A DNA stretch of 64,000 bases. Source: Sipunculus nudus. Lineage: Eukaryota > Annelida > Sipuncula > Golfingiida > Sipunculidae. Numbering within the stretch: the stretch's first letter is position 1; every line of letters begins with the position of its first letter. The position numbers were made by a program, and so were the translations under genes. The stretch lies in NCBI GenBank assembly GCA_026874595.1, contig CM049309.1, forward strand, positions 72,710,426 to 72,774,425. The letters are read 5' to 3'. Shown in pieces: positions 11,337 to 64,000 of the stretch. The notes under the pieces were generated by a model. It was not told the origin of the DNA and made no database searches. It saw only the letters and a list, made by a program, of their open reading frames with translations.

Positions 11337-12511
11337 TGTATCCGCCAAAATAGAGTTTTGCGGATACTATGTTTTCAGCCCACCGCCGCGGCCGCGGCGA
11401 AGGTGTCCAGAGAACTCCTTCGTAACCGCTGGGCAGAATTTTACGAAACCCGGGATTATGTTCAGGTCACAGGTGAACTGCTGCGCCCCGATTTTGTTTT
11501 GACCTCTGACCTTTCCTCTGCGCTCTGCGTCCGTTTGTGCGTCTGTTTCAACACATAACCCACATATCTTGGGAACCGTTTGACCGATCAAGAAAATTGT
11601 TTTGCACAAATGTAGCCCTTGGAGAGCTTTATAACATACACAAAAATGGTGGTGCCACCTGCAACCATGTTTGCACAGTGTCCGTCTGTTTGTCTGCCTT
11701 GGGTTAAAATCACTCATATCTCTGCAGTGGTTTGACTAATTCACCTGAAATTTGGCATGCATATACATCCTGGATAGCTTTTCTGATTTTATGACAGGTG
11801 GCGCCACCTACTTTCACGTTTACGCTGCAGACATCCAAGCTCACATCTCGGGAACCGTTTGACCGATTGGGCCAAAATTTTTGCATGTGTATAGATCTCA
11901 CATAGCTCTTTATCATACGCAAAACTGGTGACACCACCTGCAGCCATTTTTGCACAGCTCCCGTCTGTTTGTCTGCCATGGGATAAAATCACTCCTATCT
12001 CGGCAGTGGTTTGACATATCTGCCTAAAATTTTGCAGATTTATACATCCCCGACAGCTCTCTAGATTTTATGACAGGTGGCGCCACCTGCATTCTAGTTT
12101 ATGCAGCAGACATCCAAGCTCATATCTCAGGAACTGTTTGACCAATTGGGCCAAAGTTTTGCATGTGTATAGTTCTCACATAGCTCTTTATCATACACAA
12201 AACTGGTGGCGCCACCTGCAACCATTTTTGCACAGCGTCCATCTGTTTGTCTGCCACGGGCTAAAATCACTCATATACATGTAGTGGTTTGACTTATCTG
12301 CCTTAAATTTTGCATATATACAAATTGGACGGCTTTCTGGATTTTGTGGCAGGTGGCACAACCTACATACACAATTTGGTTGCAGACATCCATGCTAATA
12401 TGCAACACTTCACTATATTTCCCCTTGCCACTCAATCCATGCCTCACTTCACCCGTTCCACTCTGATTTCGGGGGATACACGTAGTCACTTGTCGACTAC
12501 CCGAATTCTAG
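11337..12511 (+). mobile_element. HL2 copy 1, Helentron-like element nested in HL1
   Basis: Begins TGTATCCGCC and folds at once into a hairpin (GTATCCGC...GCGGATAC). A GC-rich patch (CCGCCGCGGCCGC) follows, then about 2.5 tandem units with a period of 278-279 bp (phrase AAAATCACTC at 11706, 11985 and 12263). Near the 3' end, GGATACAC inverts the 5' TGTATCC. It is followed by the hairpin GTAGTC-acttgtc-GACTAC and the end CTAG, then TT. It contains three exact GGTGGCGCCACC palindromes. Open frames on either strand across it are by-products of the repeats. Confidence 0.75.
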
Positions 12512-13123
12512 TTATTAAATGGTTTCAGGTCACAATTTTCATGTATTACACAGTGCAATATGTACTTATCAGATGTAGTTTATGCTCATTTGATAATGGA
12601 AAATTTTAATTTTTTTTACATCATTTTATTTCAGTAAATAAATGTGTATTATTAAACATCAGCTAATCTTCAATTTCTTCCTTATTCTATAATTGACAGG
12701 GGTTTATACATTCCCAGTGGAGTGGTTATTTCATGCACATGTTACTGTCACATAGCTGAACTACTGATACTTGATACTTTATATTTGATCATGAGAGGCC
12801 CCTGCATCTCTGATATAGTTCATTATAGTGCTCAGTATTAGTTTGGCTAACATTTATTTAGTTTTTGATAGCACCACCATTTCCTATTAGCTTTTCAAGT
12901 GCTTATTTATATAATAAAAAAATAGAAAAAAAGTATATTTTGCATTTGCCATTTTATTAAAATTCAGCTATATAGATCTTGCATTTGCTAAAAATTAAAA
13001 AAAAAATCAGCTGAGCACCATGACCCTTGGTTCACTTGTTTTTTAGGTGATGTAATTTTCTTTAAATGATCCAGATGCAAAAAAACCCCAAAATTATGTA
13101 ATTGTAAAGCTATCCCCCTCACT

Positions 13124-13152
13124 CCCCCCCCCCCCCCCCCACACACACACAC
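13124..13152. repeat. Poly-C then (AC)n tract
   Basis: Seventeen C followed by six AC units. Similar C runs occur at 935-949 and 6320-6330. Confidence 0.9.
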
Positions 13153-13539
13153 CAACAACTTAGTGATTATAGGGAATCAGCCATGGAGAGAATGACTTGG
13201 GGACCAAGGTCAAGATAAAAAAATAAAGATAAATCTATAACCTGGTACAAATATTATGCCCAAATTCTAGCTATTGAAAATCAGCCATATTGGTGACAGA
13301 AAATTGGCAAAAGGAAAAACATAGAAAAAAAAAATTTTGAAATTGATGGTCTTGCACTTGGAGGGGGAGGGACCTAAGTAGATGGACACTAAAAATTGTT
13401 TAACTTGAATATGGATATAGAAATAAACTCATCAACCCCTATAAACCTCCCCTTTCTAAAAAACCTGGTGGACTGAAGTAGTGGAATGGGCTTTAATTGC
13501 AACAGGCTCCTATGGCTAAGGAAAAAGTTAATCCTGAAG

Positions 13540-14260
13540 TGAATTTCATTCAAATTTTGGTCAGTCATTGCTCTTATGCTTACCTTGTTTTGGATTGGTT
13601 TTGGAGTGTCTGGCATTTGTCTGTCTGTCTGTCACTCTGTCTGTCCGTCTGTCAGGTTTTCGTGTCTGTGCCATTACTTTCCTAAATATGATCTGATTTC
13701 ATTCAAATTTTGGTCAGTGATTGATCTCATGCTTACTATGGTTGGGATTGGTTTGGAGTGTCAGGCATCTGTTTGTCTGTCTGTCTGTCACCCTGTTTGT
13801 CAGTCCTTCAGATTTTCATTTCTGTGAGATAACTTTCCTAAATATTATCTTATTTCATTCAAATTTTGGTCAGACATTGCCCTCATGCATACCTTGGTTG
13901 GGATTAGTTTTGGAGTGTCTGGCTTTTCTCTGTCTGTCTGTCACTTTGTCTGTCAGTCTGTCAGTTTTTCGTTTCCCTGCTATAACTTTCCTAAATATTA
14001 TCTAATGTCATTCAAATTTTGGTCAGTGATTGCTCTCATGCTTACCTTGGTTTGGATATGTTTTGAAGTGTCTGGCTTATGTCCGTCGTTCCATCTGTCA
14101 CTCTGTCAGGTTTTTGTTTCTGTGGGATAACTTTCCTTAATATTATCAGATTTCATGCAAATTTTGGTCAGTGATTGCTCTCATGCATACCCTGGTTTGG
14201 ATTTGTTTTGGAGTGTCTGTCTGTCACTCTGTCTGTCTGTCCTTTATCAAGCATGAAAAA
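13540..14260 (+). repeat. Five-unit tandem array, about 152-bp period, with GTCT tracts
   Basis: 'ttcaaattttggtcag' recurs at about 13556, 13708, 13865, 14018 and 14163. Each unit also has a (GTCT)n stretch and 'ataactttcctaaatattatct'. Overlapping open frames that read like repeated Cys/Leu/Ser-rich proteins arise from this array. Confidence 0.85.
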
Positions 14261-17477: not shown

Positions 17478-18530
17478 AGCGAACCTGTGAGCTTATGCGA
17501 TGGTGTGGCGTCGTCCGTTGTCCGTCATCTGTACGTTAACCCATACTATCTTGAAAACGGCAAGAGGTAGCATCACATAATTTTATGCAAAAAATTAGTC
17601 ATCTAAAAAACTATATCGTATTTTGCTTATTTTTTGGCTAACTGCATTTTCTTAGATTTTAAAGGGAAAAAGCTAAAAAAGCTTTAAAAATCTTCTTCTC
17701 CGAAACTGTTCAGCCAAATTGTCCAATATTTCACAGAAATGATTCCTGGAATAATCTTTCTCAAGTTTGTTCGAATGGTTTAAGTTCAGTGATTTTTGGC
17801 CGAGTTACAGGAAGTTGAACTTAGTCATCTGTCCATAAAAGCATACTAAAATTACAATCTCAGAAACGGCTGGAGCCATCATCACCAAATTTAATGCCAA
17901 TGTTGTTTACATGAGACATATCTGAAATTGAGGTATTGGTGGCGCCACCTGCATCGACCTTTTTTGTACGGGGGTCATCAGTGCCTGTATCATATTGACA
18001 GCTACAAAAAACTTCTTCTCTGAAACCATATGGCCAAATAGTTTAATATTGCACAGAAATGATCCTAGGGTAGTGCTTTCTGAAATTTGTTCGAATGGTC
18101 TAAGTTTAGTGACTTTTGGCTGAGTTATGGGAAGCTGAATTTAGTCATATGCTGTAACAGCCCATTTTAGCTCAGTGGCTACAAAGATCTTCTCCTCAAA
18201 AACCACTGGGCCAAATTCTTAAATCTCACACATTAATTATCCTTAGATGTTGATAATTCAAGTTTGTTCAAATGGTTTTGGTTCAGTGATTTTTGGCTGA
18301 GTTATGGGAAGCTTAACTTAGCCATTTTGCTGTATTTTCCCATATGAGTTATAAACCTGTAATATTTTTTTTGACTGACCCTACTGAGGCCAATTTGTTT
18401 AATATTTTACAAGAATAATCCCCTGAATAATTCTTATAATAATTGACTTTTATGGTTCCAAAGAATGAATTTTGGCTGAATTATAAAGGTTCAATTGAGT
18501 CATTTTACCATATATGTTAGCTGTGTGAAG
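17478..18530 (+). mobile_element. HL3 copy 1, 3'-truncated
   Basis: Starts AGCGAACCTGTGAGCTTATGC after a T-run, followed by a GTCGTCCGTTGTCCGTC tract. It continues with repeated phrases about 'cagccaaattgt', 'aatattt(t/c)acagaaat' and 'gagttatgggaagc', one exact GGTGGCGCCACC at about 17939, and no recognisable 3' end. The right boundary is approximate. It provides an intact (uninterrupted) version of the site where HL4 inserted into copy 2. Confidence 0.6.
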
Positions 18531-19407
18531 CAGATACACAGATACATCTAGATACATCTAGACTGGCACCAGTTTATCAGCATTTATTACATCATGCCTC
18601 TAGACATTCAGATTTCAGGTTATCTATGGTTAATATTGACAAGAATGTTTTTTAAAAGCTTTTAAAAAATGTAGATTTATGATTTTTGGATATTCCTCAT
18701 GCCAGGCAATGTTTACAATAGCAGCTATACAGCTCTCTGTGGGTATATAAAGATGGCTGTACATGGATTATAAATAATTGGTATCCATAGTCAAATTAAT
18801 TCAAGATTTTGCCATCAGTGAGATGTATCTGTATTACAATTTTGCATTCAATATGCATCTGTATTAATTTTTAGTGAACCTGTGAACTTATGCGATGGTG
18901 TGGCTGCGTTTGTCTTCTGTACATTTACCCATACTATTTTGAAAATGATTGGAGCTAGCATCATGAAATTTATTGCAAAAAATTAGCCATCTGAAAATTT
19001 TCTTAAATTTTATAGAGAAAAAGCTAAAAAACCTTTAAAAATCTTCTTCTCCGAAACACTCAAGCCAAATTGTTCAATATTTCACAGAAATAATCTTTTA
19101 TACCATCTCCCTCAATTTTGTTCAGGAAGTTGAACTAAGTCATCTGTCCAAAAAAGCATACTAAAATGACAGTCTCAGAAACAGCCAGAGCCATCATCAC
19201 CAAATTTTTTGCCAGTGTTGGTCACATGAGTCATATATGAAATTCAGGTATTGGTGGCGCCACCTGAATTGACCTATTTTTGTACGGGGGTCATTGGTCA
19301 TATGTACATTAATCCATAATTTCTCAGGAATAGCAGGAGCTACCATTCCCAGATTTTATGCAATAATCTGTCACATATCAAATTTTGTGGTATTCAGCTT
19401 ACTTTTT

Positions 19408-21136
19408 ATGCCCCCGCCACAAAGTGGCCGGGGCATATAGTTTTACCCATGTCCGTCATTCCGTCCTTCTGTCCTTCCGTCATTCCGAAATCAAACAGTT
19501 GTACAGACTTTTCTTTCGCAATGCCTGGAGATATTGGCCTGATTTTTGGTGTGTGGGCAGATATAGACCAGTTACAGATTGGGTTCGCGTTTCGTCCCGG
19601 TTGACCTATTTTTGACCGTTTTACGGCTCCTAAACTTAGAAAATTTCATGAAAAATAGAAATATTCATGACAGATACACATGTACGGACTTTTTTTCGCA
19701 ATGCCTGCAGAAATTGGCCTGATTTTTTGTGTGTGAGCAGATATAGACCAGTCACAGATCGAGTTCGCGTTTTGTCCTGGTTGACCTACTTTTGACCGTT
19801 TTACGGCTCCTGAACATAGAAAATTTCATGAAAAATATGAAATTTCATGACAAGTACACATGTACAGACTTTTTTTCGCAGTGCCTGCAGATATTGGCCT
19901 GATTTTTGGTGTGTGGACAGATATAGACCAGTTACAGATCGAGTTCGCATTTCGTCCCGGTTGACCTACTTTTGATCGTTTTACGGCTCCTAAACTTAGA
20001 TATTTTCATGAAAAATAGAAATATTCATGACAGATACACATGTATAGACTTTTTTTCGCAATGCCTGCAGATATTGGCCTGATTTTTGGTGTGTGGGCAG
20101 ATATAGACCAGTTACAGATAGAGTTCACGTTTCGTCCCGGTTGACCTACATTTGACTGTTTTACGGCTCCTAAACTTAGAAAATTTCATGAAAAATAGAA
20201 ATATTCATGACAGATACACATGTACAGACTTTTTTTTGCAATGCCTGCAGATATTGGCCTAATTTTTGGTGTGTGGGCAGATATAGACCAGTTACAGATC
20301 GAGTTCGCGTTTCGTCCTGGTTGACCTACTTTTGACCGTTTTACGGCTCCTGAACATAGAAAATTTCATGTAAAATATATATTTTCATGACAAATACACT
20401 TGTACAGACTTTTCTTCACAATACCTGCAGATATTGGCCTGATTTTTGGTGTGTGGGCAGATAATGACCAGTTACAGATCAAGTTCACGTTTTGTCCCAG
20501 TTGACCTATTTTTGACTGTTTGACGGTGTTCTAACATAGAAAATTTCATAAAAAGGTGCACATGTATGGACTTTTTTTCGCAGTGCCTGCAGATACGGGC
20601 CTGATTTTTGGTGTGTAGGCAGATAATGACCAGTTACAGATAGAGTTCTTGTTTCGTCTCAGTTGACCTACTTTTGACCATTTGACTGCTCCTGAACATA
20701 GAAAGTTTCATGAAAAATATAAATTTTCATAACAAATGCATATGTACTGACTTTTTTTCCTCCATGCCTGCAGATACCACCCTGATTTTTCTTGTGTGGG
20801 CAGATAATGACATTTACAGATCGAGTTTGCGTTTCATCCCGGTTGACCTACTTTTGATTGTTTTACGGCTCCTAAACATAGAAAATTTCATGAAAGACAG
20901 AAATTTTTATGGAAAATGTTTATGTATGGACTTTTTTTCACAATGCCTGCATATACTGGCATGATTTTTGGTGTGTTGCTTGATAATGACCCGTTACAGA
21001 TCGAGTTTGCATTTTGCCCTTGTTGACCCCATTTTTGACCATACAACACCTCCTGAACTTAAAAAATTTTCCAAATTTTACAAATGTTTCTAATTTGCCC
21101 AAGGCGGGGGCATTCGTGTCGTTCCGACACATCTAG
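19408..21136 (+). mobile_element. HL4, complete Helentron-like element with 180-bp tandem core
   Basis: 5' terminus ATGCCCCCGCC within a hairpin (GCCCCCGCCAC-aaa-GTGGCCGGGGC). An exact 11-bp inverted copy, GGCGGGGGCAT, lies at 21103-21113. Then come a 6-bp-stem hairpin GTGTCG-ttc-CGACAC (21116-21130), the end CTAG (21133-21136) and TTT. A GTCCGTC/GTCCTTCCGTC tract follows the 5' hairpin. Nine tandem units fill the body. There is no coding capacity: the open frames at 19385 and 20710 are shadows. Length is 1729 bp. It is inserted in a T-run of HL3. Confidence 0.8.
19500..21060 (+). repeat. Nine-unit tandem array, 180-bp period, core of HL4
   Basis: The phrase (t)GTAC/TGGACTTTTTTTCGCA recurs at about 19501, 19682, 19862, 20042, 20222, 20402, 20564, 20744 and 20924. 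Spacing is 180 (181 once) except for one 162-bp unit. Each unit contains 'cctgcagatattggcctgat', 'gtgtgtgggcagat' and 'ttgacctacttttgaccgtttt'. Later units diverge more than earlier ones. Confidence 0.9.
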
Positions 21137-22059
21137 TTTGCTATCTGCATTTACTTAGAATTTATAAGGAAAAAGCTGACAATATTTTAAAAGTCGTCTT
21201 CTTGTAGAGGGTCCAGCCAAATTGTTAAATATTTTACATAAATGATCCCAGAGGCAAGCCCTCTCAAGTTTGTTCAAATGGTTTGCATTTGATGAATTTT
21301 AGTGGAGTTACACAAATTTGAACAGTCATTCAGCCAAGTAAGCATACTGACATAGTACTCTCAGAAATGACAGAAGCTAGCATTACCAGGTATTGTGCAA
21401 ATGTTGGTCACATGACTCATATTTGAAATTGCAGATTTTGTGGTGCCACCTACATTGACCTGTTTTTTAATGGGCAAAAAACCTCCTAATATTAGCCTCT
21501 TTCAGCTTAATGATGAAACTGTCAAGTTGAATTGTTCAATTTTTCAAAAGAATTATCCTAGGACATGGTTCTTTCAATCATATCAGAATATACTGAGTTT
21601 GTTGATTTTTGGTTGAGTTGTGAAAAGCTTAAGTTGGTCTTATGGCCATTATGATGTCTTTTTCAAACTGAGGACTGCAATAGTGTTCTTCTACAAAATT
21701 ATTATTTCAATTATATCTTCTGTAACATTGCACAAAAATTATTCTTAGGTGGCCTTTGTTCAAGTTTACTAGAATGATTTTTGGCAGAACTATTGGACCT
21801 TTAACAATGAAAGTACTGCATCTTTTATTATTCTAGATATTTTGATAAAAAGTTTATGAATATGTCGGCTTGAAAAAAGAAATTTTAACCAAAGTCTTTC
21901 AGTATGTGTAAACAGATATACCAACAGGCCAAGATTGAATCTGTATCTTTAAATAGGTTGAGAAACTGCCAACTGTTTCAGATTTGGGAACAGATCAAGA
22001 GTTCATTCACTGCAGCCAGATATAGGTCAAGAGTTCAATCAGTGCAGCCAAGCACATGG

Positions 22060-22125
22060 CATGTGATCACCTCATGGGTGACATGTGAACACCTCATGGG
22101 CACCATGTGATCACTTCATGGGTGT
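22060..22125. repeat. Minisatellite, three 22-bp units
   Basis: Three consecutive units of the form CATGTGAWCACYTCATGGGYRM. Looser repeats of 'gttcactcagtgcagccaggt' surround it from 21990 to 22480. Confidence 0.85.
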
Positions 22126-22933
22126 CAAGCCCTCAGGGCAGGGCCCCTGCATGAGCTTATGCAATGGTGTGGCTACTATTTCAGAATTGGCAACAGGCTA
22201 GAGGTCTGTCTGGATCTATTTATAGCTTTGGCAGACTGCCAACTGTATCAGATTAGGCAACAGGTCAAGAGTTCACTCAGTGCAGCCAGGTATGGGTCAG
22301 GAGTTTACTCAGTGCAGTAGCTGCATTCTGTTTATAGCTTTGGCAGACTTCCAACTGTGTCAGATTATGCAACAGGTCAAGAGTTCACTCGGTGCAGCCA
22401 GGTACAGGTCAAAAGTTCACTCAGTCTAGCCAGGTGCAGGTCATGAGTTCACTCAGTGCAGTTGTCTGAGCAAGCAATTTGTCACAGTTCACTCGGGGCA
22501 ACAGCCTTTCTCACCTAAGCCTGGTCAGCCCCATGCATCAGACTCAAGGTAAGTTTGATGTATTGGCTTAATATTTTGACCTGTCTATGTGTCTTTGATG
22601 GCTTTCTCGCTCACAAGACAGGTGTCACCACCTACCATGACTTTTGCACACGTTTTTCTCAGGAGGGATTTGATATATCAGTCTGAAATTGGGCGTATGT
22701 ATATATCTCTGATAGCTTCGTTGTATACAAGACTGGTGGTGCCAGCTACAATCTTTTTAGTGTTGTGTGCACCTATGCCAGAATTTCAGCAGTGATGTTT
22801 GTGCAATTGTTTCTTATTCAAAATGTTTAGTACTTGCATAGTTCATATACATGAAAAGTAATGGTCTAGCATTGAAGCATTATACCTGGTGTATTTCCCA
22901 ATGCACAGGTTCGCATTAGGCCTGTAGGCCTTG

Positions 22934-23609
22934 TTTATATGAAAAAAAATAATGAAATCATGAAAAGAAATAGCAAATGATGAAGAAATACCCATTTGTA
23001 TAGTTTGTTTATTCATCAGAGAATGCTAAATAGGCCTTTTTACAGGTTTCTATCATTTCATGAGCTTAGCTGACTTGGTCCTGCTGAGCTCTGTGCTTCC
23101 CTATACCTTGCATTGGTTCAAGATCTTCAGTCAGTGCTCAGCAACAGTTTCATCACTGTTATATGGTGGTTCTGTAGTTGTCACCAAATTGATGAATTTC
23201 TAGTACACTTTGCAGCCCTTGTCCTGTCAGTTCATCAAATTCAATGTCTTTCCTTGCAGTCTATTCTTTTCTTCTTTAGATTTTCAAAAAGTCTGTGATG
23301 GAATATGTGCTTCTCATGCAAGGGAGCAAGGTTTCCTAAAATCAGTTTCTTATTTTGTTATACCAAGCAGTATGTGTAAATATTTTAATTTTTCTTCAAT
23401 GATGTAATAAGGGCACACTATGATCGTGGTATGTAAATTTGGTTCATATCATATGTTTAATGATTTATTAGTCCCCCACCAGTAAAGAGGGAAGACCACT
23501 AAAATGGTCAGGGACGTCCATCCATCAGAGCGTCCTTTCATCCATCAATTCCACCCCATCACTGATGGCACACTTTCCTAGTTAAAAATATGTGCCTCTA
23601 GGCCCTAGT
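22934..23609. other. No gene or repeat recognised
   Basis: AT-rich spacer between HL3 copy 2 and HL2 copy 2. Open frames at 23113 and 23210 look random. Confidence 0.5.
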
Positions 23610-24768
23610 TGTATTTGCCAAAACAGAGTTTTGCGGATACTATGTTTTCAGCTGGATGCTGCCACCGCGTAGGTGTCCGGAGAACTCCTCCGTAACCGCT
23701 AGGCGGAATTTTACGAAACCCGGGATTATGTTTGGGTCACATTTGAACTGCTGCGCCCTGATTTTATTTTGACCTCTGACCCTTCCTCTGTGTCCATTTG
23801 TGCGTCTGTGTTCACACATAAACCTCCATATCTCTGGACTCGTTTGACCAATCAGGAAAAAAATTTTGTACAAATGTAGCCCTTGGATAGCTTTATAACA
23901 TACACAAAAAATGGTGGTGCCACCTGCAACCATGTTTGCACAGTGTCCATCTGTTCATTTGCCTTGGGTTAAAATCGCTCATATCTCTGCATTGGTTTGA
24001 CCAATTCACCTGAAATTCGGCATGCATATACATGCTGGATAGCTTTCTTGATTTTATGACAGCTGGCGCCACCTACATTTACATTCATGCTGCAGACATC
24101 CAAGCTCATATCTTGGGAACTGTTTGACCGATTGGGCCAAAATTTTGCATATGTATAGATCTCACATGCATAGCTCTCCATCATACGCAAAACTGGTGGC
24201 GCCACCTCCTACCATTTTTGCACAGCGTCTGTCTGTTTGTCTGCCATGGGATAAAATCACTCATATCTCTGCACTGGTTTGACTTGTCTGCCTAAAATTT
24301 TGCAGGTTTATACATCTTGGAGAGCTTTTTTGATTTTATGACAGGTGGCGCCACCTACATTCACATTTAGGCTGCAGACATCCAAGCTCATATCTCGGGA
24401 ACCGTTTGGCCGATTGAGCCAAAATTTTGCATGTGTATAGATCTCACATAGCTCTTTATCATACGCATAACTGGTGGCGCCACCTGCAACCATTTTTGCA
24501 CAGGGTCCGTCTGTTTGTCTGCCGTGGGGTAAAATCACTCATCTCAGCAGTGGTTTGACTTTTTGCATTTGTATACAACTTTGATAGCTTTCTGGATTTT
24601 GTGGTAGGTGGCACAACCTACATACACATTTCGGCTGCAGATATCCATGCTAATATGCAACACACCTCACTCTATTTCCCCTTGTTACTCAATCCATGCC
24701 TCACTTCACCCGTCCCACTCTGATTTCGGCAGATACACGTAGTCGCTTGTCGACTTCCCATATTCTAG
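23610..24768 (+). mobile_element. HL2 copy 2, Helentron-like element
   Basis: Full-length second copy of the family at 11337-12511, same orientation. 5' hairpin from TGTATTTGCC to GCGGATAC; internal units with period 278-282 bp (AAAATC at 23971, 24253 and 24531); 3' subterminal GATACAC; hairpin around AGTCG-cttgt-CGACT; end TTCTAG followed by TT. It contains three exact and one imperfect copy of the GGTGGCGCCACC palindrome. Confidence 0.75.
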
Positions 24769-27422
24769 TTTATATATTGATGTTTATAATAATTGATTGA
24801 AAAAGATGCAAAAACAACACTTGCTTATTGGTGCTCTGCACTGTTCCACTATGGCTACAATTAAATAGCTTAATGTCATAATAGGTCAATAGAAAGTAAC
24901 AATTGTGAGTTTAATAGGGCTTGTATTAATTCATTAAGAGAAGTGCATATTAAGTTTATTTCTTATTTTAAGTAAGTTATCAGTCCACATTCATCAAACC
25001 AATTGGACCTTTATGGTTGATGGATGTAGGTTGGACATTCCAGACAGCCAAGGCTGTTTTCCCCTTATTTTTTTAAAGATGAACCCCCTGGCTGAAGTGG
25101 TGCAGATGTTTGGATTATTAATCCCTTGGTGTTTACTGTAAACCCTTCCCACTCCAAAATCTTTGAGGTGCTCTTTAGATGTCACCATAACCAGCCTGTC
25201 AGTGGCTGACTAATCATTAATGTCATCTTTAAGATTAATTTCCCTGTCATGGAACTGGCTTTAGAGACACATGTCCTGCCATGCCTCACACCAAGCCTTG
25301 GTATGCTACATGTTTACACCAAGTATGCTGTTATTCAGCTATAAGTACATTTATAAACTGATACACAAATCACACATATTATGATATAAATATGAAGTAT
25401 AGAATGTTGCTTTGTGTGGCACCTTGATTGTTCAAGTTACTAATATGTTAGGAGAAGCAGGGCATGTATACATGCCTTCAAGGATTTAAGCTTTGTATGT
25501 TCAGCTGAGCCTTGTTGGCCAGTTGCCACTCATTGGGTCACAGTCTTTAGTTGGCTCCTAGTACCTGTGTCTTTACCTTTCTTGGACAATTCAGAGATAA
25601 AATGGAGATTCTCAAAGATCTACAGCTAAAGTTTGGAAGAAAGAAGATCATTATAATGGCAATCACTGTAACTGTTACTGTATTTCTCGTCAGGAACCAG
25701 GCATTTGTGCCAGCAGTAAAAAATTCCCCTCTAAGATTGAGCAGTTATAGTTCAGTAAAGTTTCATCTGATGAGCTCTTGGGACACCCGAGTGTTCGTTC
25801 AGACCTCAGATAGATTGCACATTTATTGCCTAGCTAACTTTTAGTCCCTGAGCTATGACGACACCAATTGTCCATACAGCTGCTTGTGCAGCTGTCTCAT
25901 TTAAAGAACAGGGACTGTTTCTTGATTATTAGAACCAAAGACTTTTGTTTTAAAGGTTAATTCTTTGTTGAAGTGATATTTAAGCAAATCTGGTGTTCTA
26001 TCTCCTTTTTTTAATATATGGCATACCAGTTAATTATTGCGGTCTTTCAGATCACTAATTGCAGTGGTCCTAAGCATAAATATGATCAGAGTACAGTGTG
26101 AATACTATGTTTATTACGTTAATATCCTGGTTAATTGCTTTTTAATATCTTATTGGGATAGTGGTTGACTTTCATGTCCTAGTTAATTGCCTTGTAATAT
26201 CTTATTGAGATAGATACTGGTGTTGTTAGATGAGTAAAGTAAATAGCTTGTGCTTACAAGTTACAAACATTGTCCACTTGGCAATGTTGAGGTTTACCGT
26301 GTGGATATTTTGTCCTCTCACAAAATGTAGACATTTTACTCTATGGGTATTTTCTCCTATAGCAGATTGTTGATGGACATTTGGGTAAATATGTAAATAT
26401 AAACTATTGAAACATTTGCATTGTACATCCATGTAGATACTTTCTTGTACTTCCAGATATCAATGATGCACACTCTGATCCCCACTGCCAAACAAACCAT
26501 TTTGTATTAAAGTGTTATTGTTTTTAATGAGTTTAGTCCAGGTGTATATTCACACCTGTTTTAGTTGACTGTTGAATCCTCTGTAAATATATGATACCAG
26601 TTCAGTTTATACCATTGAACTTTGAGCATTATACATTCAATCAGTTATAATTAAACCACTGAATGCCAAGGCAAAATTTATGCACCTGTGCCCCGAGGTG
26701 TATTCTCACATAAATTATATCATTTGATGTTCTAACCTTTATACAACCTGTTTGTTACAGTAGAATTAGCAACACTTTAAATGCCTGTAATTCCCTGAAG
26801 TACCAGAGCAGTTTGTAAATATTTTGGTTTTATTCTTGTTTTAACTAGTAATAATTATTCAGGTTTGTGGAGGTTGTGAAAAGAACATAAAGAATATTAT
26901 ATGTTTACAAAATATTATATTATTTTGATATACAGTTTAGAGACCATGCTTCCTGACAGGTCATATGTATACACTCATACATCACTGATTGAAACCAGAA
27001 AAAGATATGTTTTTTTACAAAGATACATGCACATGAGTTTTAAGGTGATTCTTCAAAGTCTACAGGTACATAAACACTTATGGTTGCAGTTTTTAGCATC
27101 GCCTAAGACTGACACGGTTTGAACTAGTGCTCAGGTGAGTAACATTTGATGGGTTTGAGTCACAGCTCTGCATCAGCTTGATAGATTTTCTGTCCATGTT
27201 CACAGTTCTGCTGTGACTGGCAAATCCCCAGGAAATCTGTTCACTAAAGGTGACATACACAGATACATGTAATTTATATATCCCTTATCCGGGTGGCATC
27301 TGGGGTTGGGGCCAGGTACAAACAGCAGTTCCTAGGTTCAGGTCCAGGTAAAAGTACCTGACACCAACCGTAGCAGCTTGTAGGAAAATTACCTCCCTGC
27401 AAACTTGTTTGACATAGTTTTT
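24769..27422. other. No gene confirmed; one membrane-type open frame
   Basis: Mostly AT-rich unique sequence. An open frame at 25551-25844 contains an internal ATG with a good context (AAAATGG at 25600-25606), followed by a basic patch (KFGRKK) and about 15 hydrophobic residues (IIIMAITVTVTVFLV), the layout of a signal anchor. The rest of it looks random and no family is recognised. A 2x52-bp imperfect duplication sits at 26121-26218. Confidence 0.35.
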
Positions 27423-39440: not shown

Positions 39441-39572
39441 GTGATTGAAAACCTTGGAGCTGCTTATTGTCTTCCTTGATAAAGAGGAAGTGGCTTCTGG
39501 TGACCATTTTACATCTGTCATTAATTTCTTTATATATATCCAAGCTTATAATGACTCAAAAATTAACTTTTT

Positions 39573-49822: not shown

Positions 49823-49825
<3 letters not shown>

Positions 49826-50064: not shown

Positions 50065-51911
50065 ATATATATATATATATTTGTAATTGTTAACTAATTA
50101 ATATGTTATGCATTTATAAAGTGTCTGCCCAGTCTTTGTGCTATATTTTATTTATTGTAGATATTGATTTGTTATTTTCTTTAAATGGCAAAATAATTGG
50201 CCTGACAAGGGAAATGTTGCACCAGTAATTTTAATACATGATATCATAAATAGTGGTTGTTGATGTGAGTTTAGTGCCCCCTTAATATTACAAAAAGTTA
50301 ATTATAATAAGTTGATCATGTACAGTGTGCTGCAGATGCTGATTGTGACATAATAATTTTCAAGAGCATTTTATTTATGTATGTTTGATCCTGTCCCTAG
50401 AGATTCTATGAAGTTGAGAAAATTTACAACTGAGGGTCCTTTATGTTTGTGGAGCTGTAGCCTTTGACCATATCAGAAGTGATTGTCAGGACATTTAGGG
50501 TTTTGTTATATAGCAGATGTTTTGTATATTCAAAATGTAATTGATTTGGACATAAAAATGGTGAGCATAATATAACCATCTGATATATGGTAGTAACTTG
50601 ATAAAATACAATCATCTGACTCTCCATATCCATGCTCCACAATGGTTGCATTTGAACATGTATGACCTTGGCACGTTTTTCAAGGTCACAGAGGTAATAG
50701 TCCTAAAAAGAGGTCAGCACAATAACTTGAAAGAACTAGATAACTGGCAGTTGACAAACAACTAAAGGTATCTGCCAAATCACAGAGGCATGGATAAAGT
50801 GATTCTTGGAATCTCTCCTAATGTGACAGCCATCCAAATCTGTAGCATCAGAGATTTCCAAGTATCCCAAGATGCACGGACAGACAAAACTAAAGATTAC
50901 TGTAGGTGGCACCACCAGTCACATGTACAAGATAATGCCACCCTAGATCTGTCATGTACAATTTCAGGCTTATACATTAAACCACTCCTGAGATTAATGT
51001 ATTGATGTATTTTACAGAAACATAGTACAGCATAGTACATTAAAAGAAGAGGTAATGTGTTAGCATGGCTTTCATTCACAATTGTAGGGATTATTAGATA
51101 TTTTATCGAGGGACAAGCATGTTATCACTGCCAGAAGGTAAAGCATGTTACATTTCACAATGTTTACCATTGGTGGGACTTGGATTTGAGCATTTGGCAG
51201 GGACACACCTTCCGTCCTGATCTGACACCATGAAAAAGGGAATGTGCCACTTTCATGCTGGATGTTGACACTTGTCTCTCCAAATAAACATTCTCTCCAA
51301 ATAAAAAATAGAACACTATTTGTATGTCCATGGCTGTACTTTAATTTCCAGACTGGATGTTGGAGATATTTATTAAATATTCAGCACCACTGCTGCCACT
51401 GTAGATTATCCTTGTGAAAGAGATAACTCAGATATCTTTTGGCATATTTAATTCAAATTTTGCTGATGCATAGATTTTGGTTTCAAGGTGAAAACTTTTT
51501 AAATTGGTACATTAAACTTTCCTAAAAGAGTTGCCTTCACCTTGTATTGGCCCATGGTAGGTGAAAATTTGCACTAAACCTTTGTCTCCAGAATAGTTAT
51601 GATGTATAATGGTTCTGAAATTTGTTATGGTTCAAGATAGTGGACAGCTATATCTTGTGCTTAGCACTGGTGCTACCATCTGCTGTATTTAGTTTCATTT
51701 TTTGTGCTATTTTACTGCAAAACTGTTAGATTTCTTTGAAAGTTTGCATGAACATATATGTGGGTCAGAGCTGCATCCTGGACAGATTAGTTTGACCTCA
51801 CATTATTTTCTGATTGATGTCAACACAGTTCTCCCACCCCTTCACTAGTGGATAAAATGGAGCAATCACAGTCATATTTTCATCACATTTTCTGTTTTTT
51901 TTCCCCACCAG

Positions 51912-52581: not shown

Positions 52582-52659
52582 GTGAGATAGGTGCATTACA
52601 CTGTGTTAGGTATGTACATTGTGAGATAGGTGCATTACACTGTGTTAGGTATGTACATT
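52582..52659. repeat. Exact 39-bp tandem duplication
   Basis: 52582-52620 and 52621-52659 are identical. The first copy abuts the right end of the hAT-type MITE, and the unit contains CTGTGTTAGGTA, similar to the CTGTGTTAGATA on the left flank of that MITE. Confidence 0.95.
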
Positions 52660-58271: not shown

Positions 58272-58925
58272 GTAATACATAGCTGGAGCCAAATATAGTC
58301 AGGGCCCTGGTACTCATTAATTTACTCTTCTCAGTTTGGCCAGTGAATGGCTGTTAACACCGTAGATGGATTTTATTTTGGAGGTAGTCTCCCAGCAAAT
58401 GTAGACTCCTAGACACTGGTTCCTTTCTTGGTTATCATTTTATCATCATTTGCTAGCCTTGATTTGCTGAAAGCATACCAGAATAAAGGATTATTGGATG
58501 AGGTTAGAAAAGTAATAGCAACTGAAAGGAATGGAGCATTTACTTTATTGATATATCTAAACAGGATGTGTCCAGTGGGGTACAATAGGAATAATGTGGA
58601 TTTATTGTAATTCATACTTAAAATGACAAGCAGCACCATCTAGTGATCTGTTGTAAAATCTAGTATCCTCAAAGGAAGCCTTCAAAGAGTAAACTTCCTC
58701 TGTTTCCATTAAGAAATTATCTCATTTAAGATCTCATATTTTATGCTGAAGTTTTATTTGTATTCCTACTCCCACATTCTTACTATGTCTGAAGCTGTAT
58801 TTTTAAATTAACACAGGGAAGAAGAGTGTGCTGTTATATATAAATTTATCTTTCTTAAGGACAATACAAAAATTTTATGTGAAAAATTAGTAGTTTAATT
58901 TGTAGATGTAAAAAGACACATTTAT

Positions 58926-60988
58926 TGTATCCCAAGACAAAGTCGGGGGATACTTAGTTTTCATACCGGTCCCGCCGCTGCCGCCGCATATAAATCTTGT
59001 TTGCGCGATGACTCAAAATATATTTCACGGATCTTTACCAAACTTGGTATATGTATAGATATGGGTGAGAGGACGACGCCTTTTTAAAATGAGGTCTTGA
59101 CCTTGACTAGGAGAGTGTCCTTGACCTTGAATAGGTCCAGTTTTGGGCAAAATCACACAAATTCTTAAATATCTCAAGAAATCTTGCATGGATTGATCCC
59201 AAAATCAAGTTGATGGAAGATCATGGATAGGGTTGTCATTTTCCAGAAACTGGTGGTGCCACCTATTATTCTTTACTTGTTTTTGTGCCGTTTAATACCC
59301 CCAAAATTGCAACTTGACAGTACTGTGAGCATTATAAGTCAAAAACTAATGGACAGATTTCTTTCATATTATGCATATACATAGATATGGGTTATGGGAT
59401 CATGTTCATTTAAAATTGGGGTCATGACCTTTCCTTTGAGAGTGGCCTTGACCTTGAATATTGCCATATATGGTGAAAATCACACAAAATCATTAATTTC
59501 TCAATAAGGGATGCATTGATTGGTCCAAAAATCAACTTGACCTAAGATATTGGATAGTAAGGTCATGTACCGGAAACAGGTGGCGCCACCTGTTATTCTT
59601 TTACTTGTTTTCGTGCCGTTTAATACCCCCATCATTGCCACATAACAGTACTGTGAGCATTATAAGTCAAAAACTAATGGACAGATTTCTTTCATATTAT
59701 GCATATACATAGACATGGGTTATGGGATGATGTATATATAAATTGGGGTTATAACCTTTCCTATTAGAGTGCCCTTGACCTTGAATATTGCCATATATGG
59801 TGAAAATTATACAAAATCATTAATATCTCAATAAGGGAAGCATGGATTGGTCCAAAAATCAACTTGATCAAAGATCTTGGATAGGGTTGTCATGTTCCAG
59901 AAACTGGTGGTGCCACCTATTATTCTTTACTTGTTTTTTTGTGCCGTTTAATACCCCCAAAATTGCAACTTGACAGTACTGTGAGCATTATAAGTCAAAA
60001 ACTAATGGACAGATTTCTTTCATATTATGCATATACATAGATATGGGTTATGGGATGATGTTCATTTAAATCAGGGTCATGACCTTTCCTGTGAGAGTGG
60101 CCTTGACCTTGAATATTGCCATATATGGTGAAAATCACACAAAATCATTAATATCTCAATAAGGGATGCATTGATTGGTCCAAAAATCAACTGAAGATCT
60201 TGGATAGTGTTGTCATGTACCGGAAACTGATCGCGCCACCTGTTATTCTTTTACTTGTTTTTGAGAGAGGAATATCTCAAAAAGGATTTATAATATGAAT
60301 TTTATTTCTTCGGTGCTGATGTATATTAACAAAATCTTGTTCAAGTTTGAACATGGGTGACTTTGACTTATTTTTGGTTGTTTAAGAGTGAATTAAAGAA
60401 AAACCTTAGAAACTTATTTCTCAGGAACCACTTGGTGGACTGTTATAAAACATGCTATGATTATTAACACTGATGGTCTGTAACTGCTGCACGAGTTTTG
60501 GGGTGCCACCTCCAATTTCTGAATTTAAAAGAATTTTTATCAGATTTTTCAATTTTGGCCTTGTGAGCAGGATATCTCCAAAAGTATGCAACACAGGAAT
60601 TTCTTTTCTTTGATGCTGATACATATCAACAAAATCTCTGTCAAGTTCAAAGATGGATAACCTTGACCTAATTCTCAAGGTCATAGAGCTTATAATAGAA
60701 AAAACCTAGGAGCTTATTTCTCAGGAACCACTGGATGGATTGTTTTGGAATGTGGAATGGTCATTGGCCTTTATGATCTCTTTAGTGCTGCGTGACTTAC
60801 AAAGACTGGAGCCAGACTTGCAAAGTTACTATATACCTCTCTAGTTCCAATTCACAACTTGAACAAGATATATGTACAGATATACATCCTTGTGAGAACA
60901 AATAATACATGAATACTTGTTACTGTTATCACCCATAAATACTGCTCTTTTGGCTGAGGGCTTTTGTCAGCTTTTGCTGATATTCTAG
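58926..60988 (+). mobile_element. HL5, Helentron-like element with 328-bp tandem core
   Basis: Begins TGTATCCC in a hairpin (GTATCCC-aagacaaagtcg-GGGGATAC), then a GC patch (CCCGCCGCTGCCGCCGC) as in HL2. Four tandem units follow, with an exact 328-bp period over the best part. Two copies of a different repeat of about 300 bp come next (60260-60720). The end is hairpin TCAGC-tttt-GCTGA (60967-60980), TATT and CTAG before TTTT. The 3' inverted copy of the 5' terminus seen in the other families is not clear here. The antisense open frame at 60421-60684 is a shadow. Confidence 0.6.
58993..60260 (+). repeat. Tandem array, 328-bp period, in HL5
   Basis: The phrase TACTGTGAGCATTATAAGTC occurs at 59321, 59649 and 59977, exactly 328 bp apart. 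A diverged unit precedes them from about 58993 and a truncated one ends near 60260. Each unit carries one GGTGGYGCCACC-type motif. Confidence 0.9.
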
Positions 60989-62579
60989 TTTTCAACTTAT
61001 AATTAGAAGAGACTGTTTCTCTGAACTGACTTGCTGATTAATTTTGTTAAACTCAGTCACTCATCTGAAGATTGAACTAATTTAATAGAACTTGGCACAT
61101 GTGTGTTATTTTTTCATACCTAGGCTGTGATTATTGACGGTGCCCTAGCCACATTTTTGTGACTTAAAGTCACCAACCTCTCCTGAACTGTGCCTGGAGC
61201 ATTCATTAACTGAGCTTGGGTACTTCTCATTAGCAGATATATGTCCTGTGACTGGGATAATAACAGCCTTGCACTGGAGGTTTCTTGTTTTATCCGTCTT
61301 CCTTTTAGATTAAAACAAAATGCTCATTTACAGACTCCAAAGAATGTGAGACAGCAAACTGAGAATATATTAATTGAAAATAATGTTGTATAGCTTTAAG
61401 GTGGAAGCTGTAGCCTCTCATCAGGTTATTATTGTAACTAGCTAGAAATAATACTCATACCACAAACCTCGGCCAGCATTGTTGTATACCGGAGGCAAAA
61501 TTTTACCTAAGGATCCTGATTAAACTTCAGAGTATACACATGGTATGAAAGTGCAGGAAATATATGAAAGAATTGCATTTCACCAACCCCATTGTTGTAA
61601 CAGAGGTCAGCTTTGCCTGACAGAACAAAGACAGCTCAAATAAGGTCACACCATTACATGTAAGTGGTAGAAGCTCACCCTTCCAACAGGGTCGCTTCTA
61701 CTCAAAATGAACTTCTTCCAGTTAGAAAATTGTGGGGATGGCTGGGACTACTTGTCTAAACTGTCAGACTTCAAAATCCAACTTGGTTACATTTCAAAGA
61801 AACACATTCTGTTTACATTTCACATGTTCATGCTTACAAAATAATACTAATACCATGATGTCCTTACCATGAAAACACCCGTGTTTATATAATTTGCTTT
61901 GAATCAATTCTTATCCAACATATTTGAACCATCATTACCCTTTCCACTACATTTATACATATGCCACTGGTGTAATTAGAACCTCCAGTCCAATGTGGGC
62001 ATAGGAACTCTACCTACAATCCCTAACCAGCAGAGTCAAATTCTGCGCAGTGTGGGAGAAACTTTAATCTGCTAATCAGTACACTGACGGTCAAATTCCC
62101 CCAATACTAGTGAGTGATATAAGACTAGTCTCACTTTCAACAAGGAGGAATTGATGGCACTTTCTCAAAATTCTAAAGAATCCTTTAATCTAAACCTATT
62201 ATGATGATTCAGATTACCTCTAAAATTTAATTAATGGTTCCATTGTTATTACTGTAATCCTCCTTAAAATTTCATCAAAAGCCTTTCATGTCTCTCTTGA
62301 GTAAATTTGCTTAAAGAAAGTGAAACCATCTGAGGCAAAAACATTAATTAATACATGGCAAAAGTAAAAAAATGTTTAGTCTGGTTAATGTGAAAAGGAA
62401 TAGCAGTTCCCTGACCTGTTAAACCTGTCCATTAATTACTTCACAGTTAAGCCATGGTTCATTACACCAGCTGTAAGCAAAAAAAGAAATATGTGGATTC
62501 ATTTTGCAATACAAAAAATGCATATTTTTAATTTACCATATATATTCATTTTATGAAGGTTTCATATATAATAAGAGTA
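60989..62579. other. No repeat recognised; one candidate exon
   Basis: Unique-looking sequence between HL5 and HL6. Apart from the candidate exon at 61309-61393, I see nothing gene-like. Confidence 0.4.
61309..61393 (+). CDS. Possible terminal or alternative exon of ArfGAP1
   Basis: A good acceptor (TTATCCGTCTTCCTTTTAG) is followed by a frame that accepts the phase-2 donor of the exon at 58212-58271. Read in that phase it codes for 28 residues (Arg from the split codon, then LKQNAHLQTPKNVRQQTENI and further residues) and stops at TAG 61391-61393. It lies just beyond the HL5 repeat. It lacks the tryptophan-rich motifs typical of ArfGAP1 C-termini, so it could be an alternative 3' exon or chance. 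The true downstream exons may lie beyond the window. Confidence 0.3.
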
Positions 62580-62720
62580 TTGTCAAGCCTGTGGGGAGAC
62601 ATTTTATATAATATAGCCAGGCTTGACAAGCGGTGCCCTATAGTGATCACCGTGTCAGTCCATCCTTCTGTCCTTCTGTCCTTCCGTCAATGACTCTTTC
62701 CTTCTGTATTTAATCTGGTC
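62580..62720 (+). mobile_element. HL6, 5' end of another Helentron-like family
   Basis: TTGTCAAGCCTG (62580-62591) and its exact reverse complement CAGGCTTGACAA (62618-62629) form a 12-bp stem. They are followed by TCCTTCTGTCCTTCTGTCCT and more of the same, as after the 5' hairpins of the other families. No 3' end was found. Confidence 0.45.
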
Positions 62721-63274
62721 GAAGTCTTTACTATGTATAGGTCATATATGTCTTTCCTCTGTGGATATTGTAAATAAAAATTTTAATCTTGTTTGTTTTT
62801 GATGTGTTAAGGATTTATTTGAATGGTATTGAAGTTAGACTGACATCATATTATGTGATTAAACCAGTAAAATTTTGCTTTTCCACATTGAGAGTTGTAA
62901 AGGTAAAAACTGGATAGAAGCTAAGTTATTCAGAACAACATGGCTGTCTAGATTAAATCTGAGAGAGAACTTTATAGATAGCTTACAGAATCCATTCATT
63001 AGCTTGGGCAGTTTAAGCTTGGTTTTACGGTAAACATTTTGTTGAAGGACATCTGTATGGTCATATCTTGAAAGATAATCGTAGGAATTCTTCATAGTCT
63101 CTGTAAAATCAATGTTCAAGTCACAGTTCAAAACATGTTATAGTGGATCTGTGTCCCACTAATCAAGATGCTTTTTGATAAGTGGTAATATAATATTTAT
63201 CTTCAGATGTGTTCAGAAAATATTTTGAGGAAGGGAAACCAGTTTGGAATCATTTGAAGTATTGTTGATCTAAT

Positions 63275-64000
63275 TGTATCCGCCATAACAGAGTTTTGTT
63301 GATACTATGTTTTCAGTTGGCCGCCACCGCACAGGTTTCCGGAAAACTTCTCCGTAACCACTAGACAGAATTTTTTTAAATTCAGGATTATGATCAGGTC
63401 ACATGTGAACTGCTGCGCCCTCATTTTTGGTTGACCTCTGACCTTTCCTTACTGCCCAGCATCCATTTGTGCGTCTGTTTCCACACATAAACCCACATAT
63501 CTTGGGAACCGTTTGACCGATGAGGCTAAAAATTTAGCACAAATGTAGCCCTTGGATAGCTATATAATATACACTAAACATGGTGGCGCCACCTGCAACC
63601 ATTTTTGCACAGCATCCATCTGTTCATCTGCCTTTGGATAAAATCACTCCTATCTCTGCATTGGTTGGACTTATCCACCTGAAATTTTGCAGGTTTATAC
63701 ATCCTGGACAGCTTTCTCGATTTTATGACAGGAAGCGCCACCTACATATCACGGTAATGCTGCAGACATCCAAGCTCCTGTTTCTGGAACCGTCTGACCG
63801 ATTGGGCCATAATTTTGCATGTGTATAGATCTTACATAGCTTTTCATCATACGCAAAACTGGTGGCGCCACCTGCAACCATTTATGCACAGCGTCCATCT
63901 GTTCATCTGCCTTGGGATAAAATCACTCATATCTCAGCAGTGGTTTGACTTATCAACCTGAAATTTTGCATGTTTATACATCATGGACAGCTTTCTCCAT
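63275..64000 (+). mobile_element. HL2 copy 3, cut by window end
   Basis: Begins TGTATCCGCC with a degraded 5' hairpin (GTATCCGCCATAACAGAGTT...GATAC). It proceeds through the same GC patch and 279-bp units (AAAATCACTC at 63640 and 63919), then runs off the window. Two exact GGTGGCGCCACC palindromes are present. The open frame at 63580-63828 is a repeat shadow. Confidence 0.75.

Follow-up and report, generated by a model that had tools for sequence, protein, structure and literature searches.

A palindromic 13-bp motif in the tandem arrays of HINE-like elements of Sipunculus nudus: a probable protein-binding site, inherited and conserved

The 64,000-nt stretch of Sipunculus nudus DNA analyzed here (the window) contains several elements built around central tandem arrays.

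11336..12513, plus strand: HL2 element 1, HINE-like, with 5′ TTGTATCCGCC, inner GCGGATAC, array at 11635-12396, 3′ GGGGGATACA, hairpin GTAGTC/GACTAC and CTAGTT end
17479..22931, plus strand: HL3/HLx element, with 5′ GCGAACCTGTG and 3′ CACAGGTTCGC then AGGCCTGTAGGCCT
19408..21138, plus strand: nested HINE, ATGCCCCCGCC ... GGCGGGGGCAT, its 180-bp array lacking the palindrome
23609..24770, plus strand: HL2 element 2, structure as HL2 element 1, ends decayed
58925..60263, plus strand: HL5 element, with 5′ TTGTATCCCAAGACAAAGTCGGGGGATAC and a 328-bp array
63274..64000, plus strand: HL2 element 3, truncated where the window ends

The HL2 and nested elements carry ends of the HINE (non-autonomous Helentron) type. 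Subterminal inverted repeats lie at both ends, 9 of 10 positions being complementary in HL2 (TGTATCCGCC at 11337 and GGGGGATACA at 12471) and the match being exact in the nested element (ATGCCCCCGCC/GGCGGGGGCAT). An inner inverted repeat, GTATCCGC...GCGGATAC, is situated no more than 32 bp from the HL2 5′ end, and similar ones are present in HL5 and the nested element. A short hairpin directly precedes CTAGTT at 12508 in HL2, and the nested element has a GTGTCG/CGACAC hairpin before 21133, followed by CTAGTT; HL2 starts with TT and finishes with CTAGTT, as read from the element itself. No 3′ end was found for the HL5 element, and the HL3/HLx stretch is probably a single element, judging from its inverted pair. 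All 11 accepted HINE 5′ ends in the window are on the plus strand (weaker matches with two mismatches are uncounted), and a relict at 50.7-51.0 kb is on the minus strand. Elsewhere in the genome, 143 matches to the Helitron Rep domain (PF14214) were obtained among the 150 of 195 candidates that were scored, several of them in open frames of more than 2,200 aa. The motif described below is absent from eight Helitron-Rep loci and from two 3-kb stretches adjoining one of these loci, and thus no autonomous partner is linked to these elements.

The arrays share a perfect 12-bp palindrome, GGTGGCGCCACC. Conservation extends to a T at position 13, so that the full conserved word has 13 letters, GGTGGCGCCACCT. 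There are 33 window sites with up to three changes, of which 26 were taken as the motif (one, at 60499, has three changes) and seven were set aside. The accepted sites are given below in 13-mer coordinates, together with a different palindrome present in HL5.

11648..11660, plus strand: motif GGTGGTGCCACCT, HL2, one change
11797..11809, plus strand: motif, HL2, exact
11927..11939, plus strand: motif, HL2, two changes
12076..12088, plus strand: motif, HL2, exact
12205..12217, plus strand: motif, HL2, exact
12352..12364, plus strand: motif, HL2 last unit, two changes
17938..17950, plus strand: motif, HL3, exact
19253..19265, plus strand: motif, HL3, exact
21439..21451, plus strand: motif, HL3, two changes
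22621..22633, plus strand: motif, HLx, two changes
22735..22747, plus strand: motif, HLx, two changes
23913..23925, plus strand: motif, HL2, one change
24062..24074, plus strand: motif, HL2, one change
24195..24207, plus strand: motif, HL2, exact
24344..24356, plus strand: motif, HL2, exact
24473..24485, plus strand: motif, HL2, exact
24607..24619, plus strand: motif, HL2 last unit, two changes
50904..50916, minus strand: motif GGTGGTGCCACCT, relict, palindrome at 50905-50916, flank match 51010-50923
59252..59264, plus strand: motif, HL5, one change
59420..59429, plus strand, also 60075-60084: different palindrome GGTCATGACC, other half of the HL5 unit
59579..59591, plus strand: motif, HL5, exact, within the 20-bp palindrome AACAGGTGGCGCCACCTGTT (59575-59594)
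59747-59756: GGTTATAACC, symmetric variant of GGTCATGACC in one HL5 copy
59906..59918, plus strand: motif, HL5, one change
60229..60241, plus strand: motif, HL5, two changes
60499..60511, plus strand: weak motif TGGGGTGCCACCT, HL5b, three changes
63582..63594, plus strand: motif, HL2, exact
63731..63743, plus strand: motif, HL2, two changes
63861..63873, plus strand: motif, HL2, exact

All eleven exact copies listed in a first-pass annotation of this DNA are placed correctly to within one base. Of the sites that it described as differing by one base, 59252 (its 59249) and 59906 do have a single change, whereas 60229, 21439 and 22735 (its 60231, 21440 and 22740) have two each; near copies beyond its list are located at 11648, 23913 and 24062 (one change) and at 11927, 12352, 24607, 63731 and 22621 (two changes). 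The 50905 site looks unrelated on the plus strand, but on the minus strand it is recognizable as a relict of the array monomer described below.

There are several features of this motif. First, it is enormously over-represented. The 11 exact copies of GGTGGCGCCACC in the window compare with 0.00 expected from shuffles, and the 17 sites with no more than one mismatch compare with 0.02. Genome-wide (1.43 Gb) there are at least 111,729 exact copies, and only 14 of a control of the same composition with the letters written backwards, so that the palindrome is approximately 8,000 times commoner and the genome-wide count proposed in the annotation returned enrichment. Second, a T adjoins the palindrome on at least one strand in 110,547 of the 111,729 genomic copies and on neither in just 1,182, where we estimate from the window base frequencies that about 54% would have one. 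Third, the arrays differ in periodicity. Each ~279-bp period of HL2 contains two palindromes, at alternating distances of 129-134 and 147-149 bp; in HL5 they recur at intervals of 323-327 bp; and in HL3, which is interrupted by a nested element, their spacing is irregular. By eye, the ~330-bp units of HL5 and of a related cluster read as two monomer halves of ~130-170 bp. The motif was not found in the 180-bp and 153-bp arrays of the window.

Fourth, the palindrome (box 2) is preceded at about 80 bp by a second conserved word, ATATCTC (box 1). In all nine flank-cluster consensuses the start of this word is 79-82 bp upstream of the motif, while successive unit flanks are 117-345 bp apart. TCTC is present 76-82 bp upstream in seven of the nine clusters (shuffle mean 0.24, maximum 3 in 5,000 shuffles), and 75-84 bp upstream in 49 of 68 exact sites whose strand was fixed by T13 or A0 alone, as against one of 68 in the opposite orientation. 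In a set of 88, which adds sites whose strand was assigned from TCTC itself, 70 TCTC matches fall at 76-82 bp and 21 at all remaining upstream positions. Genome-wide, 74,677 of the 13-mers have TCTC at this upstream spacing, and the backwards control has none. As the annotation had it, the palindrome occupies a fixed position within the repeat units of several families. It constitutes box 2 of a diverged monomer of ~130-170 bp, and arrays of this monomer are present in HINE-like elements.

The families were previously described as unrelated, which is wrong for most of them. That flanks differ between families, as the annotation stated, is only partly right: identity of the upstream flanks is 35-54% between families and 57-73% between HL2 subtypes, HL2 flanks resemble those of HL5, HLx and HL3 beyond shuffles, and box 1 stands at its fixed spacing. 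No significant similarity was seen between HL3 flanks and those of HL5, HLx or HL5b, or between HL2 and HL5b. Leave-family-out profiles covered 105 bp upstream, with the palindrome excluded. When HL2 was withheld from training, 12 of its 15 units were detected at E<0.01, their palindromes being displaced by -2 to +4 bases relative to the prediction; flank profiles also predict the exact position of the palindrome in the minus-strand relict at 50905, which had no part in the training. Held-out units of HL3 (1/3), HL5 (2/4) and HL5b (1/1) were found at E 0.09-0.4, no more than 4 bases off register. Prediction of the motif from flanks alone is clear for HL2 and one HLx unit, and marginal for HL3, HL5 and HL5b; the common ancestry suggested earlier holds in part. 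Among the flank matches in held-out families with E<0.01, 4 of 18 lack the motif. Profiles trained on the flanks of exact-motif units, partly the same units as those tested, found 68 of 76 testable units with the motif at the predicted place with up to four mismatches. A 23-letter flank pattern had no matches in either viral or prokaryote collections.

We consider it on balance probable, from comparison of the sequences, that the motif reflects common descent together with sequence constraint, box 2 being a cis-acting protein-binding site of the element. An old ~130-170-bp monomer with both boxes would have formed the central tandem arrays of HINE-like rolling-circle elements, and most of the window families would descend from it, their spacers having diverged strongly while GGTGGCGCCACCT and the 80-bp spacing stayed, in our opinion because transposing lineages need the motif. 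It would most likely be a sequence-specific, dyad-symmetric site for a putative DNA-binding protein, probably a host factor, predicted to act with box 1 in element transcription, chromatin set-up or replication, to the element's benefit; transposition would then have carried copies passively to over 100,000 places in the genome.

A possible but clearly less likely explanation is descent alone, in which an ancestral monomer held the palindrome by chance and recent radiation, concerted evolution (gene conversion, unequal exchange) or a low mutation rate has preserved a functionless sequence. The flank homology of HL2 with HL5, HLx, HL3 and the relict is in its favor, as is the decay of the motif's central CpG at much the rate of flank CpGs (20.6% and 23.9%), such that single copies do not look host-maintained. 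Three observations argue against it. First, where spacers between families are only 35-54% identical, the 13-mer matches at 10-13 of 13 positions in 20 of 21 between-group pairs and at 8 in the other, among units chosen for having the motif. Second, the box-1 word is 79-82 bp upstream in every flank cluster. Third, non-CpG mismatches within families are about half as frequent in the motif (34/693, 4.9%) as in the flanks (671/6084 and 287/2330, 11-12%) in 63 units, a test that omitted 8 of 76 units with six or more mismatches and is thus biased toward the motif. This excess is modest, as 10-16% of upstream windows are equally conserved in three of five families and 1-2% in the other two. The flanks are thus less conserved than the palindrome, contrary to what the annotation had associated with simple descent, and its proposal of a maintained protein-binding or replication-related site agrees in part with this conservation, between and within families, binding or a role in replication being putative.

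A structural role appears improbable; here a hairpin or cruciform extruded from the palindrome would favor the formation of arrays, recombination or rolling-circle pausing. In the clam satellite phBglII400, as far as the account of its junctions goes, 13 of 16 junctions lie at a 12-bp palindrome and the rest at a 10-bp one (PMC5139131), and in HL5 the half of the unit away from the motif carries another palindrome, GGTCATGACC, for which one copy has the symmetric variant GGTTATAACC. However, in 68 units found by flank profiles the palindrome pairs show 65 one-sided changes and no two-sided, compensatory ones. The T at position 13 is kept in 9/9 flank clusters, whereas its dyad partner, A at position 0, is kept in only 2/9, and HL2 arrays end some tens of bases past the last palindrome (by reading rather than computation). 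The two arms change about equally in these units (19 in columns 1-5, 17 in columns 8-12), as expected of a symmetric site read by sequence; a left-right asymmetry hinted at by the first 24 window sites was not confirmed in this larger set, leaving T13 as the sole asymmetry of the motif.

Also rather improbable is that the two boxes form one bipartite module, side by side across two nucleosomal DNA turns and read jointly by a putative host chromatin protein, the ~80-bp spacing being kept because the boxes adjoin across those turns. A single genome would then contain, built by rolling-circle elements, more than 100,000 landing sites of nucleosome scale, all identical.

Slightly less probable again is a host regulatory site (an insulator, or a zinc-finger/E-box or E2F-like site) that the elements dispersed and that was afterwards retained, in each copy, for the host. 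The invariant CCACCT appears similar to the cores bound by ZEB and Snail and to a portion of the CTCF core, as does TGGCGCCA to palindromic E2F sites. By eye, however, the downstream half of the CTCF consensus is absent, and the central CpG decays freely, so that most copies do not look protected. Chance, base composition or coding sequence has next to no credibility and is already refuted, since the counts are 0 expected in the window and 111,729 against 14 genome-wide, and the only window ORF of at least 150 aa (54124-54597) contains none of the sites.

Pol III box A and box B were rejected, as box 2 is without the TTCGA core; tRNA and Rfam searches returned no tRNA and no Rfam match. A literature text search for the exact 12-mer gave nothing relevant, the match being in an unrelated chitinase context. 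Regional orientation bias was also considered as a general rule: in a sample of exact sites, 34 of 34 clusters in C1:0.14-5.01 Mb are minus and five of five in the window plus, but strand-labelled lists gave no support. Among the matches listed, 14 of 21 pairs within 200 kb are on the same strand (p 0.11), and a strand-runs test gives p 0.06 for C1 0.2-7.5 Mb and p 0.20 beyond 1.1 Mb.

Diverged arrays (nine flank clusters, a small sample) thus share one 13-mer at a fixed distance from box 1, in more than 100,000 copies. The motif is a concrete candidate for a cis-acting site, the arrays might work as protein-loading platforms, and the motif would serve as a marker linking repeat families too diverged for alignment. 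These features bear on the frequent presence of satellite-like arrays in non-autonomous Helentrons.

Bivalves also have HINEs that combine tandem repeats with palindromes, according to the portions of two reports that concern them (PMC7492417, PMC5139131). Non-autonomous Helentron structure, with tandem repeats in some, is also described for arthropod DINE-1/HINE Helentrons, the relevant part of that account describing no comparable internal repeat palindrome (PMC4067079). In the sections of PMC5139131 on satellites, phBglII400 of Ruditapes philippinarum has an internally repetitive monomer with 12-bp and 10-bp palindromes, both sizes being among those in HL5; BIV160/Cg170 satellites share two conserved motifs, comparable by description (their letters are unprinted) with the two boxes here; and the DTC84 element has a conserved palindrome near repeat junctions. 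Monomer lengths differ from those of HL2 and HL5, at about 160 bp for BIV160 and, from its name, about 400 bp for phBglII400 (PMC5139131). Cg_HINE of the Pacific oyster, in the description of its structure, resembles HL2 in its subterminal inverted repeats, inner inverted repeat and 3′ hairpin, and the elements here in its central arrays of satellite-like monomers (140-180 bp in Cg_HINE) and in two conserved segments common to otherwise dissimilar monomers, again compared by description as the letters are unprinted (PMC7492417). It differs in that palindromes are reported there at the element 3′ end, with none described as shared inside monomers (PMC7492417). GTCC-type microsatellites, which the same description reports for Cg_HINE (PMC7492417), can be recognized by eye in the 39569 family of the present DNA as well.

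Exact copies of the palindromic 12-mer GGTGGCGCCACC occur 11 times in the window, where shuffled sequences predict 0.00, and 17 places match it with at most one change (0.02 expected), which bears out the palindrome reported in the first-pass annotation. Allowing up to three changes raises the number of places to 33, of which 26 were taken as the motif and seven excluded. The window has a GC content of 36% and a single open reading frame of at least 150 aa; searches for tRNAs and, at gathering score, for Rfam families found none, and it is surrounded by a repeat-rich eukaryotic genome whose element types point to an animal, probably a mollusc. Across the assembly (1,426,538,692 bases, 153 contigs) the palindrome is present in at least 111,729 copies as compared with 14 for a control with the letters reversed, also a palindrome and identical in composition, so that the proposed genome-wide count does reveal enrichment. 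A second genome-wide pattern finds just 1,182 of the 111,729 lacking both a right-hand T (T13) and a left-hand A (A0, its dyad partner), and 98.9% are therefore the 13-mer GGTGGCGCCACCT in either orientation, where window base frequencies give an estimate of about 54%. Twenty exact copies in 20 regularly spaced 10-kb stretches are confined to four of them, and the copies are thus clustered in elements.

Elements that carry arrays in the window, HINEs (non-autonomous Helentrons) among them and named for their tandem-unit families, include the following:

11336-12513: HL2 element 1, HINE anatomy
23609-24770: HL2 element 2, HINE anatomy, decayed
63274 to window end: HL2 element 3, HINE anatomy, cut
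17479 to about 22931: apparent single HL3/HLx element, with ends GCGAACCTGTG and CACAGGTTCGC
19408-21138: second HINE, clean, inside the HL3/HLx element, with a 180-bp array
58925 (5′ start): HL5 element, beginning TTGTATCCCAAGACAAAGTCGGGGGATAC

With letters taken from element 1, the HL2 elements have TTGTATCCGCC at the 5′ end and an inner GCGGATAC, continue with a central array, and towards the 3′ end carry GGGGGATACA, then the hairpin GTAGTC/GACTAC and a terminal CTAGTT. The HL3 and small HLx units appear to belong to one element, and the palindrome is absent from the 180-bp array of the HINE nested within it. No 3′ end of the HL5 element was found in the window. Scoring 150 of 195 candidates gave at least 143 genome-wide matches to Helitron-like Rep domains, of which several sit in open frames longer than 2,200 aa; six such genes (L071-L076, on contigs C7, C11, C4, C17, C8 and C3) have open frames of 1,163 to 2,250 aa. 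Autonomous Helitron-type elements may therefore be intact in this genome. The motif was found neither in eight Rep loci of 3.4-3.6 kb each nor in a pair of 3-kb stretches next to one of these loci.

Unit alignment reveals a second conserved place, ATATCTC (box 1), about 80 bp upstream of the palindrome (box 2). Its spacing was examined at 96 exact sites with enough flank; these lie in the window, in the 10-kb stretches, at eight loci (L001-L008) and in 40 short segments of contig C1 that surround listed sites. T13 or A0 alone fixes the strand of 68 sites, 27 having both letters and one neither; TCTC lies 75-84 bp upstream in 49 of the 68, and in one when the orientation is reversed. After adding 21 of the 27 both-letter sites, oriented by TCTC itself, and dropping eight (six undecided, one with neither letter, one with too little flank), 88 sites were analysed. 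TCTC occurs 70 times at 76-82 bp, with 43 of these precisely at 80 bp; the remaining upstream places together have 21. Genome-wide, TCTC stands at this spacing before the 13-mer 37,649 + 37,028 times (backwards control, 0). By upstream flank the 88 sites form nine clusters at 70% identity and five at 65%; as two of the nine are found alternating within HL2 arrays, the clusters do not equal nine element families. Seven of nine cluster consensuses have TCTC at 76-82 bp (shuffle mean 0.24), with TCTA or TCTT in its place in the remaining two. Successive unit flanks are 117 to 345 bp apart.

What keeps the motif? The first possibility is common descent. The first-pass annotation called the families unrelated; upstream flanks, compared with the palindrome excluded and against 60 shuffles each, indicate otherwise for most of them. 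HL2 flanks exceed shuffles against HL5 (z 10.4), HLx (10.6) and HL3 (3.8), and HL5-HLx, HL5-HL5b and HLx-HL5b are more weakly alike (z 2.5-2.9); the comparisons of HL3 with HL5, HLx or HL5b and of HL2 with HL5b do no better than shuffles. Profiles of 105 upstream bases, each family being left out of training in turn, recover 12 of 15 HL2 units at E<0.01, the palindrome lying -2 to +4 bases from its predicted position; of the other three HL2 units one scores E 0.42 and two were missed. For HLx, one of two units is recovered at 1e-9, the second at 0.26. HL3, HL5 and HL5b are matched in 1/3, 2/4 and 1/1 units at E 0.09-0.4 only, with the palindrome no more than 4 bases out of register. A minus-strand place outside the training set, at 51010-50923 (E 2.7e-7), has GGTGGTGCCACCT exactly where predicted. 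The first run gave 18 held-out matches at E<0.01: 12 HL2 units, that minus-strand relict (a decayed monomer), four without the motif at its place, and one running off the window. On these comparisons most families share an ancestor, the evidence being weaker for HL3 and HL5b.

Conservation of the motif nonetheless exceeds that of its flanks. Between family consensuses the 13-mer is identical at 10-13 of 13 positions in 20 of 21 pairs (8/13 in one), as against 35-54% for upstream flanks (57-73% between HL2 subtypes), a comparison biased by choosing units for the motif. The alternative posed earlier, flanks conserved like the palindrome, thus fails between families, though flank homology does exist. 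Motif-free flank profiles, run on the window and a 200-kb sample to lessen this bias, gave 77 units, 76 testable, with at most four mismatches to the motif in 68 and at least six in eight; some bias remains, since training used flanks of units with the exact motif, some of which recur among the units tested. Mismatches per column in the 68 units are 4, 5, 4, 4, 2, 15, 14, 3, 6, 3, 3, 2 and 1, the two peaks being the central CpG. Across 63 units in five clusters, the non-CpG mismatch rate is 34/693 (4.9%) in the motif, while in the flanks it is 671/6084 (11.0%) on the upstream side and 287/2330 (12.3%) on the downstream side (Fisher p 1e-8). This test, with non-independent units, favours the motif by excluding those with six or more mismatches. 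Upstream windows as conserved as the motif make up 10-16% in three clusters and 1-2% in two.

Second, each copy might be maintained for the host. However, CpG columns of the motif (26/126) decay much as those outside it do (75/314), which argues against upkeep of single copies and places the constraint most likely on lineages that transpose. Third, if the motif were a hairpin preserved for its shape, paired changes should be tolerated, and base-pair positions show 65 one-sided and no two-sided changes in the 68 units. The two arms show about the same degree of conservation, the pattern of a symmetric protein site, to which one extra T is added. Judging from sequence, the motif most likely serves the element in cis as a protein-binding site and forms a pair with box 1 about 80 bp away, both the protein and its effect being inferred. 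Of the earlier choice between binding site and common ancestry, ancestry holds for most families and a binding site is suggested by conservation above the flanks. Candidate look-alikes of the motif are ZEB/Snail CACCT, part of CTCF and E2F TGGCGCCA.

Similar arrangements are described for tandem-repeat HINEs of oysters, where otherwise dissimilar monomers have two conserved segments in common (PMC7492417), for the clam satellite phBglII400 (13 of 16 junctions at a 12-bp palindrome, the rest at a 10-bp one), for DTC84, whose palindrome is conserved, and for BIV160/Cg170 with its two conserved motifs (PMC5139131). Their likeness to the present boxes is one of description; in one text search of a literature library, the 12-mer turned up in one unrelated paper.

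Several other features were observed. The HL5 units (59083-60263) contain further perfect 10-bp palindromes, ACAGTACTGT, GGTCATGACC and CCATATATGG, at recurring places, and in the middle copy GGTCATGACC is replaced by GGTTATAACC, both arms having changed with the palindrome kept. TGACCT/AGGTCA words, presumably nuclear-receptor-like half-sites, recur in the 180-bp array (19500-21040) and the HL5 units (59083-60680). A decayed HL5-type 5′ end lies at 5528-5764, about 53 kb from the HL5 array, and a run of 25 G at 5431-5455. Another HINE-like family has three 5′ ends (9746, 27419 and 39569; TTTTAGCTCAGCTGA, up to two mismatches), with no motif seen nearby and a GTCC microsatellite in the element starting at 39569. 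The open reading frame at 54121-54594 is a reverse-transcriptase piece, presumably LINE-like, with an ALKBH8_N-like end. All eleven accepted HINE 5′ ends in the window (5528-63274) are on the plus strand, the relict at 50.7-51.0 kb and the sampled C1 sites at 0.14-1.08 Mb on the minus strand; a general regional bias is unsupported in wider strand-labelled lists, among the matches listed. Within C1:5000001-5010000, units of another palindrome cluster are arrayed at a period of about 327-345 bp, and this array directly adjoins the apparent 5′ end of a like-oriented HL2 element.
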